Positions 31,938-36,474 of a stretch of DNA of 64,000 bases are shown piece by piece (position 1 is the first letter of the stretch; every line of letters begins with the position of its first letter). The translations under genes were made by a program, and so were the position numbers. The notes under the pieces are model-generated. The model had not been told where the DNA came from, ran no database searches, and was given only the letters and a program-made list of their open reading frames with translations. The DNA lies in the NCBI GenBank assembly GCA_913057905.1, contig CAJXPB010000006.1, forward strand, positions 186,001 to 250,000, written 5' to 3'. The DNA is from an uncultured Pseudomonadota bacterium (lineage in GTDB: Bacteria > Myxococcota_A > Bradymonadia > Bradymonadales > Bradymonadaceae).

Positions 31938-33824
31938 ATGTCCGATCTACTGACCAGCCCCGACGGCCATCCGGCCGACTGTCCGCGTGTACTGGGAGCG
32001 CGCTGCCAGGAGTGCGGCCGTGCGCTGCGCGAGGACGCCATCCAGTGCACTGACTGCGAGGCCCCGAAGCCGGACGACGGCTGGCCTCAATTGGACATGG
32101 AGCCCGACCCCTGGCTGGGACGCGATCTCGACAAGCGCTATCTGCTTACTCGACTCCTGGGCCGCGGCACCTCGGGGTCGGTCTACCGCGCAGAGAGCCC
32201 GAACGCCGTCGAATCGTACGCCGCGAAGATCATTCAAATCCAGGACACCGACTCCGGCTTCGGGTCGCGTCATGCGCTCGAACGGATCGTCTCCGAGATC
32301 AAGCTGTTGGTCCGGGTCCGAAGCCCGCATGTCGTAAAGTTCGTCGACGCGCTGAAACTTCCCGGCTCGTCGATCGCAGTCATCTCGTCGCTGGTCGACG
32401 GCCGCTCGCTGCAGGACAGACTCGACAAGGATGGTGCCCTCGATACGCCCCTGGCCGTCGAGCTGGCCAGACAGGTCGCCATCGGTCTGTCGGAGGTTCA
32501 CCGACTCGGGGCCGTCCACCGCGACCTCAAACCCGAAAACATTCTGGTTCAAACACTGCATCGCGACGATCCGTTCGCCTTTATCATCGACTTCGGGATC
32601 GTCCGGCTTCAGGATGAGATGCGCAAGACTTCGGGGTTTATCGGCACGCCGCTCTACAGCAGCCCAGAACAGGCGATGGGTGACGATGTCACACCGGCCA
32701 GCGACATCTACGCCCTGGGGGCGGTGCTCTTTGCGATGCTGACAGGCCGACCGCCCTTCCCCGGACGCACGCCGTCGGTCGTACTCAAAGCCCACGTTCG
32801 GGATCCTCGCCCGACCCTTGAGTCGACGGGAACCGGCCCGTGGCCTCCCGAGCTCGAGGCCCTCGTTGCGGACTTGCTGGCACGAGATCCGGCCGACCGA
32901 CCGAGTTCGATGTCGGCCGTCGCCGACCGCCTCGACGCGTACCTCCGGGAGATCTCGGCACCCAGTGCCCGGGACGCCTCCCGGGGCGACGACCCGCCGC
33001 GCGACTCACACGAATCGCCGAGTCGCAGGCGACGACGTCGAGGAGGCCAGACCTCCGCCCTCTCGAGCCCCGGCGCACGGCTGCCATCGGGCGGTCGAAC
33101 GCCCCCGCGCAAGGACCGGCGACGCGTCGATCGACCCGTCTGGACCTGTGACCGCCGCGGGCGAACCGTGGCCGTCCGGGACAAACAGATCGTCCTGTAC
33201 GACGACCGCGACGGCTCCGACCCCCGCTCTCTACTGACCCCCGGCATCCGCTGCTCGGCGCTCGCCATCTCCGGCGACACGATCCTCGCGGGGCTCGTCA
33301 ACGGCGAGCTTATGCGCGTCTCCATCGACGGGTCCGCCGTCGAAACCGTGCTTCACGATTCGGCCCTCGCTCCCATCAGTGCCGTGGGACTCTCGGAGGA
33401 TGCTCGCACGCTCGTCGTCGCCGGTGGTCCCGGCCGAGTCCGCTGCAAGGTCGGAGACCGGGACTGGGAACAACTCCCGGCCGGCCCGACGGTCACCGCC
33501 CTGGCGGTCGACGCGACGACCGGCGGGCTCGCCATCGGACGGGCCGATTCGACGACCTCTATCGTGGTGCCCCACCATCGGGTCTGGGAATTCGAGACGA
33601 CTTTCTGGCACGCTAACCCACCACTGGCGATCTACTTTTCCGACGACGGATACCTGCTCGCGACGGCGCTGAAGGGCAATTCCGTGGAGGTCTACGACGT
33701 GCAGTCGGGCCGCCATGTTCGCCGGACCGACGGGTGTACGTTTACCGCCGCGACCCAGTTTCAGCGCAGCCCACTCGACTGCTGCGGTCGCGGGCCCTCT
33801 ACCTGTAAATTCGTGACGCCTTGA
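31938..33824 (+). CDS. Ser/Thr protein kinase with zinc-ribbon head and propeller-like tail
   Basis: A 628 aa Hanks-type kinase with no clear membrane helix. Residues about 28-45 form a zinc-ribbon-like CQEC...CTDC. The kinase domain (about 60-330) has LLGRGTSGSVYRAE (P-loop), the AAKII Lys, HRDLKPEN (194-201) and IDFGIVRL, with GTPLYSSPEQAMG. A basic Arg/Ser-rich linker (about 345-405) follows. The last 220 residues have repeated strand patterns (VAVRDKQIVLYDDRDG; ALAISGDTILAGLVNGELM) like a WD40/beta-propeller sensor. All catalytic residues appear present. It leads a three-gene run with a membrane protein and an L7/L12-CTD-like protein. Confidence 0.9.
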   Translation: MSDLLTSPDGHPADCPRVLGARCQECGRALREDAIQCTDCEAPKPDDGWPQLDMEPDPWLGRDLDKRYLLTRLLGRGTSGSVYRAESPNAVESYAAKIIQIQDTDSGFGSRHALERIVSEIKLLVRVRSPHVVKFVDALKLPGSSIAVISSLVDGRSLQDRLDKDGALDTPLAVELARQVAIGLSEVHRLGAVHRDLKPENILVQTLHRDDPFAFIIDFGIVRLQDEMRKTSGFIGTPLYSSPEQAMGDDVTPASDIYALGAVLFAMLTGRPPFPGRTPSVVLKAHVRDPRPTLESTGTGPWPPELEALVADLLARDPADRPSSMSAVADRLDAYLREISAPSARDASRGDDPPRDSHESPSRRRRRRGGQTSALSSPGARLPSGGRTPPRKDRRRVDRPVWTCDRRGRTVAVRDKQIVLYDDRDGSDPRSLLTPGIRCSALAISGDTILAGLVNGELMRVSIDGSAVETVLHDSALAPISAVGLSEDARTLVVAGGPGRVRCKVGDRDWEQLPAGPTVTALAVDATTGGLAIGRADSTTSIVVPHHRVWEFETTFWHANPPLAIYFSDDGYLLATALKGNSVEVYDVQSGRHVRRTDGCTFTAATQFQRSPLDCCGRGPSTCKFVTP

Positions 33825-33885: not shown

Positions 33886-35016
33886 ATGACGGAGACACGG
33901 AATTCGAATCGCATTGAGGCCGAGACCGACTACCAGGCGAGCGATTACTTCAAGCTCGCCTGGGCGATGGTCCGCAGGGATCCCTGGCTTGTGGGCTGGC
34001 GCCTGGCCGCCGATCTGTTCAGCGCCGCCGCGCGGCCACTGACGCTCATCTGGCTCTTGCTCGTCGCCGGCGGTTGGACCGCTCGGCGTGTCTCAGCCGG
34101 CGAGTCGGAAATCGCGGCCGCACAGGCGCTGATCGAGCGCATCACTCAGCCGAGCTTTGTATTTGCTGCCGGAGGACTCCTCCTGGTCGCCACCCTGGTC
34201 GGCTTTTTGACCGACGCACTCGTATCCGGCGGTATCTGGTCGACTCTGTCGGATCTGGCGACCGGCGACGATGTCCGCCCACTGAATACCTTCTTTGGAC
34301 ATCTCTCCGGCGCGTTTCCAAAGGCCGCAGGCCTGCGGGTCTTGGCCGCCATCGGCGAATGGACCGTCATCCTCATGGGGGGACTGGTCACCGTCACCCT
34401 GATTGACCTGTACGCTCGTCCGTCGGCGCTTGCCGAGGCTTCGATCTTCGTGCAGGCGCTGATCGTAACGGTCCCGGTGTTCGTCTTTTTTGTCTTCGCC
34501 GCCCTCGTCCGTTTCGCCTTTATGGCGGCCGCTGCGCCCCTGTTTGTGGACGACGTCTCGGTGGGAACGGCCATCGCCCGGGGTGCGCGTTTCGTCATCG
34601 AACACCTCAGCGGCGTGTATCGGCTCTTTGTCTTCGCGGCCGGCCTCCTGCTGATTCCGCTCTTCGGACTCTGGGCCATCTCAACGATCCAGGCCTTTGC
34701 CGGGTCGACCGCGTCGGCGGCGATCATGCCGCTGAGATTGATCGCTCAGGCCATCGTCTACCTGAGCGTGAGTGTGCTGACTCTCTACTTCGAGGCCGCT
34801 CTTTTTGCCTTCTACGCTCGCTCCGAGGGCCGATCCTCCCCATTTGAATATTTCGCCGACTCCGACAGTTCCCCGGATGAGTCGCCGGCAAGCTCGACCT
34901 CCGGGGGCTATTCGCGCGACACGACGCTTTCAGATCTGTATCCGCGGAATCCCGACGACGGGGTCGTCTCCCTCGACGACCTGCCGCTGGATGCCGATCT
35001 GCCGGATGAAGCCTAA
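33886..35016 (+). CDS. Polytopic membrane protein, unknown
   Basis: A 376 aa protein with about six predicted membrane helices (for example LTLIWLLLVAGGW, FVFAAGGLLLVATLVGF, ALIVTVPVFVFFVFAALV, VFAAGLLLIPLFGLW) and a hydrophilic acidic Ser/Asp-rich C-terminal tail of about 60 residues containing Ser/Thr clusters. The tail contains many potential phosphorylation sites and the gene follows a Ser/Thr kinase by 61 bp, so it may be a substrate; this is inference. I do not recognise the family. The next gene starts 30 bp later. Confidence 0.7.
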   Translation: MTETRNSNRIEAETDYQASDYFKLAWAMVRRDPWLVGWRLAADLFSAAARPLTLIWLLLVAGGWTARRVSAGESEIAAAQALIERITQPSFVFAAGGLLLVATLVGFLTDALVSGGIWSTLSDLATGDDVRPLNTFFGHLSGAFPKAAGLRVLAAIGEWTVILMGGLVTVTLIDLYARPSALAEASIFVQALIVTVPVFVFFVFAALVRFAFMAAAAPLFVDDVSVGTAIARGARFVIEHLSGVYRLFVFAAGLLLIPLFGLWAISTIQAFAGSTASAAIMPLRLIAQAIVYLSVSVLTLYFEAALFAFYARSEGRSSPFEYFADSDSSPDESPASSTSGGYSRDTTLSDLYPRNPDDGVVSLDDLPLDADLPDEA

Positions 35017-35046: not shown

Positions 35047-36474
35047 TTGACTTCCCTTCCCGACGCATGGCGAGAACTGGCCGACGAGCTCGACCTGGAC
35101 GTCCGGCCCTGTGATCCTCCCGATGACACGACAGGAGGGGCGCAATGGGTTGACGTGCTCAGGCGATTCGGCGACGAGGGGTTTATGCGCCTCCTCGCCA
35201 GCCCGGGCGCCACGACGTCTTCGCTTCACCTGGAACTCGCGCCGCCGACGGGCGGGTCCGGGCCGGAATGGGTGCAAGCGGTCGCGTCGGAGTTGGAATC
35301 TCGACTCGAAACGACGTGGAATGTCGACGACGGCGGCCCGCCCTGGACGCTCACAGCCTCGGTGGTCGACGGGCCGAATCCAGATAACCTGGCGCCGTTT
35401 CTGACCGGGCTTATGCAGCTCGGCGACTACATCTCCTCGCCCGACTCGGCCGAGCCCCCGGAGTGGCTGACGCCTTCCGACGGCTCCGGGGGAAGGCCCC
35501 GGTCGGGCGACACCGAGTCGAGCGACACGGATGGAATCTTTGAGACCATCGGAGACGACGCCGACGACGACGGGTCCCGACAACCGGCGGCCGACGACCC
35601 CGACCGAGGGCGACGTTTGTCCGGTCACGGAAGTGACGCTCGGCTCGCGGCCGCGAACGTCGTCGAATCCGACGGGTCCCTCGAGGCCACGATCACGTTG
35701 GACCGCGAGGTCTCCACGGCCGCGCTCGAAACCCTCGGACGCGGCCTCGCCCACACCCTCCGCGCGCGATTCGGTGTCCACGCAAGGCCCCTGCCAGCCG
35801 GCGAAGGCAGCGAAACATCATCGGTAACAAAGACCGTGTCCGTTCGGATCGACGAGATGGAATCCGACCGGGCGGCGACCTTCGATGCCACGGAGATGGC
35901 AGATCGTCTGGACGAATACTTCGGCCGGCTGGAGAAATTCGGCGGACACGGCCTCGCCCTGGCCGATGTTTTGGGCCTGGGAGAATCCGCCGACGAACGG
36001 ACGCAGGCGAAGAAGCCGAGACAGGAGCCGACGGACGAGCGCTCGGAGCCCGGAGGCTCAATTGGTGAACCGGAAGACGACGGCGTCGTCCTGAACCTCG
36101 AGGGAGACGCGTCCGATGAACAGTCCCTACCAGAAGGGGCTGATGACTCCGGTGAGACGGTCCTCCAGGGTCCCGACTCCGGGTTGCAGGCCGGCAACTA
36201 CACCGATCCGAGATTGAAACGAGAGGATGCCGAAACCGCACTCGTCGACGTGGTGCTGCGCCACCCCGGGTACGCGGAACGCCGGATGGCACACAACCTG
36301 GGCATACTGCTGGATGTCGATTTCACCGATGCGATGGAGCTCGTACAGGATGCTCCATGCCTCATCGCCTGGGGCGTCGGCCGCGAGCGAGGGCTCCGGT
36401 TCAAGCGGGTCATCGAAAACGCGGGCGGCAAAGTCGTGCTCGTTGAGCCCGAGACCTTCACCCCGGCGGAGTAA
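35047..36474 (+). CDS. Acidic protein with L7/L12-CTD-like C-terminal domain
   Basis: A 475 aa cytoplasmic protein starting at TTG 35047 with GAGGA seven bases ahead. The N-terminal part (about 1-130) has strands and helices of no family I know; a second possible fold is about 195-300; the linkers are Asp/Glu/Ser-rich and probably disordered. Residues 400-466 align without gaps to the C-terminal domain of ribosomal protein bL12 (pattern xDVVLRHxGxx...AMELVQDAP...GV...KRVIENAGGKVVLV, about 24 percent identity by hand count). In bL12 that domain binds GTPase factors. Third gene of the kinase operon. Confidence 0.8.
   Translation: MTSLPDAWRELADELDLDVRPCDPPDDTTGGAQWVDVLRRFGDEGFMRLLASPGATTSSLHLELAPPTGGSGPEWVQAVASELESRLETTWNVDDGGPPWTLTASVVDGPNPDNLAPFLTGLMQLGDYISSPDSAEPPEWLTPSDGSGGRPRSGDTESSDTDGIFETIGDDADDDGSRQPAADDPDRGRRLSGHGSDARLAAANVVESDGSLEATITLDREVSTAALETLGRGLAHTLRARFGVHARPLPAGEGSETSSVTKTVSVRIDEMESDRAATFDATEMADRLDEYFGRLEKFGGHGLALADVLGLGESADERTQAKKPRQEPTDERSEPGGSIGEPEDDGVVLNLEGDASDEQSLPEGADDSGETVLQGPDSGLQAGNYTDPRLKREDAETALVDVVLRHPGYAERRMAHNLGILLDVDFTDAMELVQDAPCLIAWGVGRERGLRFKRVIENAGGKVVLVEPETFTPAE

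Follow-up and report, generated by a model that had tools for sequence, protein, structure and literature searches.

Ribosomal-protein domains are usually taken to indicate translation. A gene of 475 codons at 35047..36474 (+ strand) of the window (the whole stretch of DNA that was analysed, 64,000 nucleotides, G000:C6:186001-250000 in a 4.25 Mb genome) raises the question of what a ribosomal stalk domain does as the last domain of an acidic, adaptor-like protein. The gene starts with a TTG codon, and its orthologues start at the equivalent residue; a Bradymonadaceae MAG provides the same-genus relative of the window genome. The initial annotation had recognised a fold like that of the L7/L12 C-terminal domain (CTD), and had weighed a link to a kinase, to a GTPase or to translation against simple reuse of the fold.

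A C-terminal domain homologous to bL12

The bL12-CTD-type domain spans aa 399-471 (36241..36459, + strand), and its residues 399-466 are clearly homologous to the bL12 CTD (PF00542 / 1CTF). For the window sequence alone the match is suggestive: Pfam PF00542 gives E 0.0054 at 17.5 bits, under the 25.9 cut-off, TIGR00855 gives E 0.057, and a single-sequence phmmer comparison of residues 400-463 with 1CTF runs without gaps at E 0.59. This last comparison reproduces the gapless alignment, and the two segments quoted from it, that the initial annotation had placed at 36244-36444, which are exactly residues 400-466 of the open reading frame. At the family level the match is decisive, and bears out the claimed likeness to bL12. 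Several orthologues exceed the Pfam cut-off of 25.9 bits unaided (33.1, 28.4, 27.5 and 26.2 bits), and a PDB search with a profile of 18 relatives returned 1CTF first (E 1.4e-8), with bacterial and mitochondrial bL12 occupying the most significant ranks. A comparison by hhalign of the family CTD with 29 native bL12 proteins of the same class gave a probability of 96.9% (E 1.9e-10, score 54.2) along 67 columns without a gap, whereas none of 100 column-shuffled controls scored above 16.5 (E 0.016).

To the same end, residues 375-475 were modelled with AF2 without templates, using a two-sequence alignment that yielded a low-confidence model (mean pLDDT 56.8). The predicted elements follow the order E-H-H-E-H with the last residue in a strand, so that the low-confidence model presents the beta-alpha-alpha-beta-alpha-beta arrangement of the L12 fold. 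The structural check that had been proposed for the last ~75 residues likewise placed bL12 first: the best 13 Foldseek matches are all bL12 (1ctf, TMt 0.81, 1.8 A; 3j9y, TMt 0.82), and ClpS forms a second group at lower probability. Since the best E-value is only 0.05 and none passes 0.001, the fold result supports the bL12 assignment and does not decide it.

The place of ClpS in that list, and the fold that it has in common with the L12 CTD, could suggest that the domain is instead a ClpS-like protease adaptor, the more so as the gene of an AAA_16/TPR protein adjoins in many relatives. Although the overall fold class is alike, similarity at the profile level is absent: hhalign against 23 ClpS proteins of the same genomes returned at most 0.3% probability, compared to the 96.9% for bL12. 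The adjoining gene, moreover, encodes a STAND-type AAA_16 protein rather than a Clp unfoldase and is missing from the window genus, and a true ClpS is encoded elsewhere. Profile comparison rules out ClpS as the source of the CTD, and a ClpS-like protease adaptor is extremely unlikely.

The 475-aa gene is not the ribosomal bL12 gene of its genome. Canonical bL12 is encoded elsewhere, at G000:C2:215239-215439 (104.7 bits); the 475-aa protein has no match to the uL10-binding N-terminal dimerisation domain of bL12 at E up to 10, and its N-terminal part models as a different fold. As an aside on the native proteins, those of the window genus (L040, the gene just given, and L068) carry 'TDLGLKDAK' in both genomes where 'TGLGLKDAK' is usual (G77D).

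Loss of the factor-binding surface

IF2, EF-Tu, EF-G and RF3 bind bL12 on helices 4 and 5, at a surface that is conserved and carries positive charge (PMC6753160). We compared the positions at which bL12 is conserved to 90% or more with the 21 family members (CTD residues W96 and R102 are numbered as in E. coli bL12). Residues of the fold core are kept, with G62, A83, P91 and G114 at 100%, K107 at 86% and A103 at 81%. By contrast, K65, I69, K70, R73, G77, L78, G79, L80, K81 and K84 are kept in only 0-5% of members, and those lost include K65, I69, K70, R73, L80, K81 and K84 of the factor-binding region in helices 4-5. The mean net charge of helices 4-5 shifts from +2.13 in bL12 to -1.86 in the family. 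Alongside these losses, residues found invariant only in the family are R59-H60-P61-G62-Y63, L72, L75, L76, R102 and G115, together with the nearly invariant C92 and W96; the family-specific features are recognisable as LRHPGY, SILL, APC, W96 and R102. The CTD is also the best-conserved part of the protein (50-70%, versus about 30% overall). These invariants indicate that the domain is under strong constraint for a task other than that of bL12, and the loss of the factor-gripping residues alongside their gain points to reuse of the L12 fold for a different binding job.

One reading that keeps the domain close to its origin is that it still recruits translational GTPases, and so links translation or a GTPase to the membrane or to kinase signalling. 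The bL12 homology is genuine, and the flexible acidic tether is as in bL12. However, nearly all conserved factor-contact residues are lost, the helix 4-5 patch is no longer basic, the dimerisation domain is unmatched, and the kinase is a non-conserved neighbour (see below); we regard GTPase recruitment as highly unlikely. The suggested link to a GTPase or translation factor is thus unsupported, because the helix 4-5 factor residues are lost while the fold positions are kept at 81-100%, a pattern that agrees with the simple reuse of the fold also entertained at the outset. On the most likely reading, the L12 fold was redeployed for a non-translational partner, probably at the neighbouring membrane protein.

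The comparison with the bL12 CTD can be summarised from both sides. Alike are the gapless homology over 67 columns, the fold-core residues, the predicted element order, and the position of the domain, which in the adaptor too comes last in the chain, on an acidic flexible tether. Unlike bL12, the adaptor is without a matched N-terminal dimerisation domain, has its basic helix 4-5 factor residues replaced, carries family-specific invariants in a CTD that is joined to other domains, and is encoded away from the native bL12 gene.

Predicted chaperone-like modules and acidic linkers

The full-length AF2 model, again from a two-sequence alignment and of low confidence (mean pLDDT 53.6), suggests two folded modules ahead of the CTD. 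Domain 1 (aa 1-135, 35047..35451, + strand; pLDDT about 66-78) is predicted as alpha-beta3-alpha-beta2-alpha. Its first Foldseek matches are DR_1245 (4h5b), YbjN (6vu7), AmyR (5fr7) and class I type III chaperones, SpcU and SigE among them, with probabilities of 0.9-0.99 and E-values of 1e-3 or worse; the best, at probability 0.99 and E 1.4e-3 for the two-sequence model, makes the YbjN / class I type III chaperone fold a candidate. No YbjN match was found by sequence for the full protein against Pfam at E up to 10 or for nine domain-1 sequences at E up to 1, and no YbjN chain appeared in the PDB profile search. In view of this lack of sequence-level support, the YbjN-like assignment is a fold-level lead.

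Domain 2 (aa 195-315, 35629..35991, + strand; pLDDT mostly 70-80) is predicted as beta2-alpha-beta2-alpha with the same general chaperone-like topology, and has a profile match to the class relative of G031 (E 6.9e-5). The two domains were also considered as duplicates of each other, a relation that hhalign did not demonstrate (6%, E 0.006). Predicted likeness to YbjN/DR1245/AmyR and the class I type III chaperones lies in the modelled fold of domain 1 (Foldseek probability 0.99 to 4h5b and 6vu7) and in a related domain 2, whereas the adaptor differs from YbjN/DR1245/AmyR in having no detectable sequence similarity to them, two tandem copies, an extra L12-type domain, and a larger and acidic chain.

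The remainder of the protein is strongly acidic, as had been noted, with a net charge of -54. Two short conserved motifs, FE[TS]IG and the pre-CTD segment, punctuate the linkers. The first, FETIG in the window (aa 165-169, 35539..35553, + strand), lies in an acidic linker and takes the form F-E-[TSNAQ]-I-G in most full-length family members. Domain 2 is followed by an acidic linker of low confidence (aa 316-382, 35992..36192, + strand; pLDDT <50; net charge -14 over aa 310-376) and then by the pre-CTD segment GNYTDPRLKREDA (aa 383-395, 36193..36231, + strand), which contains YTDPRLKREDA and fits the pattern [GKR].[FY].D.R[LIV]...[DE][AS] in 21/21 family members.

Proteins of the YbjN fold are reported to act via protein-protein interactions and not enzymatically (PMC5398634), and DR1245 binds DdrB (PMC3575483). 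The Foldseek resemblance of domain 1 not only to YbjN but also to SpcU, SigE, SicP and ExsC could mean that the chaperone-like domains hold substrates and that the protein serves a type III-like export apparatus as secretion chaperone or adaptor, and an FHIPEP export gate protein occurs in most family genomes, including that of the window. Yet no export gene was recognised beside the adaptor gene, the best fold matches are to the YbjN family and not to parts of type III secretion systems (PMC5398634), and G001 and G009 carry the adaptor with no FHIPEP found in drafts that are ~87% complete. An export role is accordingly unlikely. The FHIPEP-type protein of the window genome is encoded at G000:C5:140333-142312, and with this gene present a type III or flagellar export apparatus probably exists in the organism.

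A conserved membrane-protein neighbour

Immediately upstream lies the gene of a membrane protein that belongs to no Pfam family (33886..35016, + strand), its stop about 30 bp from the adaptor gene. This membrane gene occurs upstream on the same strand in 14 of the 16 family loci with enough flank (several relatives' neighbourhoods lie on fragmentary MAG contigs); the count includes G005, in which the upstream membrane protein is no longer seen by BLAST and the tail motif remains. That motif, TTLSDLYP...VVSLDDLP (34921..34986, + strand), is a proposed docking motif located in the membrane protein's cytoplasmic tail, which is acidic. Almost every tail among the relatives has an equivalent that aligns with it and follows the form TLx[DE][LFY][LMIY]P-x(n)-[FVI]x[IV]x[DE][LVI], and several relatives show, by eye, only a variant of it. 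A strict pattern taken from the closest cluster occurs in 3/8 other tails versus 0.001 expected from shuffled tails; it was set post hoc, after the sequences had been seen, and misses 5/8 of the test tails.

In the window a Zn-ribbon Ser/Thr kinase with a partial beta-propeller (31938..33824, + strand) precedes the membrane gene by about 60 bp, and the reported operon of kinase, membrane protein and adaptor holds insofar as the genes are co-directional with short gaps. The same arrangement would suit a scaffold or substrate dedicated to the upstream kinase. A kinase between the SDR and membrane-protein genes is, however, found only in the window genome, and in none of the relatives examined, the same-genus contig L036 among them, does the locus contain the gene; only G013 has another kinase near the adaptor gene, and it is not orthologous. 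We regard the kinase as a lineage-specific neighbour outside the conserved unit. The claimed link to it is unsupported because relatives, down to the same genus, lack it at the locus; synteny speaks against a kinase partnership, and a dedicated scaffold or substrate is very unlikely. Among 18 relatives, none has a close match to the kinase's propeller half. In the kinase itself, the beta-propeller part is confined to approximately residues 412-600 and the chain ends in an atypical tail; the propeller may be truncated or frameshifted.

The conserved order in relatives runs HAD nucleotidase, SDR (opposite strand), membrane protein, adaptor gene, AAA_16/TPR Zn-ribbon protein, pabA/C/B (opposite strand), OmpA-like protein, small protein and PrkA-like protein; the HAD nucleotidase, SDR, PrkA-like and pabA/B/C products are named from our own reading of their sequences. 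The AAA_16/TPR neighbour of relatives (L035:9114-12008 and equivalents) combines a double Zn-ribbon, an AAA_16 ATPase and TPR repeats, and is STAND-like. Its gene is absent from the adaptor locus in the window and in the same-genus contig, and elsewhere in the window genome there are only partial matches of 24-29% identity. A defence-system reading was rejected: in a PADLOC search the kinase matches kinase-domain models only, and neither the adaptor protein nor the membrane neighbour has a match.

Distribution and a single apparent origin

The search of related genomes that had been proposed for this architecture found the gene in 21/21 Bradymonadaceae genomes, that of the window included; nearly all of them have a full-length homologue, none lacks the C-terminal region, and no second copy was found in the window genome. 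When 379 genomes of the phylum were searched with the domain profile, strong matches numbered 25 (E 1.5e-28 or better), every one of them from the same class: the 21 of the family, three of a sister family and one of a third family (496 aa). Among the matches listed, the next best are at E 1.3e-11 and weaker, and mostly of ordinary bL12 size. The sister-family proteins are scaffolds of 904-947 aa, with HEAT repeats matched in two of the three; homology to the 475-aa protein was not demonstrated outside the CTD, and the membrane gene was not detected beside their genes. In a maximum-likelihood tree, which rests on few columns and a rough bootstrap, the 25 domains fall on one side of a branch with support of 100/98, separate from native bL12 and from the other L12-type paralogues of the class. 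The L12-type domain of the family apparently had a single origin, to judge from the aligned domains.

Other proteins of the class also bear L12-type domains. Those at L096:4889-6064 (+), L097:5279-6409 (-), L099:2241-3206 (+) and L098:5408-6217 (-) consist of bL12-CTD-type domains in tandem, two to four per protein; the KIxVIKxxR signature of ribosomal L12 is kept in some copies and not in others. A degenerate L12-type domain stands at the N-terminus of the proteins at L101:3858-6524 (-), L104:6118-8751 (+) and L103:3604-5430 (+); in L101 and L104 a long stretch of low complexity and hydrophobic segments that probably span the membrane come after it. We found almost nothing in the literature on L12-like non-ribosomal domains, with one reported case of an orthocaspase with a Ribosomal_L12 domain (PMC8283722). 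The adaptor is like that orthocaspase and the proteins of L096, L097, L099, L101 and L104 in having a bL12-type CTD outside the ribosome; the other proteins of the class occupy different tree branches, and several of their copies keep KIxVIKxxR, which the adaptor family never does.

A putative stalk at the membrane

We put at roughly 55% the probability that the 475-aa protein is a cytoplasmic, non-enzymatic Bradymonadaceae adaptor that carries a bL12-derived CTD with an altered surface and has the membrane protein as its neighbour. Such an adaptor would consist of two modules of predicted YbjN / class I type III chaperone fold and the bL12-derived CTD, strung on acidic flexible linkers. Binding of peptides or of partner proteins, in the manner of YbjN-fold proteins, may be the task of the N-terminal modules, and the protein may be held at the membrane via the tail motif of its neighbour, as gene order and motif conservation suggest. 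The tethered L12-type domain would then capture a different partner through its re-modelled helix 4-5 surface. The bL12 CTD sits on a flexible tether at the ribosomal stalk, and the adaptor CTD may act in the same manner, as a mobile tethered capture domain outside the ribosome.

More tentatively, this arrangement could extend to a Bradymonadia-wide, membrane-linked adaptor system in which the L12 stalk domain was acquired a single time, lost its GTPase site and took on a specific new partner, the tail motif and the two chaperone-like modules turning it into a non-ribosomal 'stalk' that captures this partner at the membrane; we consider this broader scheme possible, with the odds against it.

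The family offers a clean case, apparently of single origin, in which the fold of the bL12 CTD persists under a new functional surface; that surface can be mapped from 25 sequences, and the case cautions against the annotation 'ribosomal L7/L12' for such proteins. The host group includes cultured predatory bacteria, and the adaptor and the membrane protein with its tail motif make a tractable pair.
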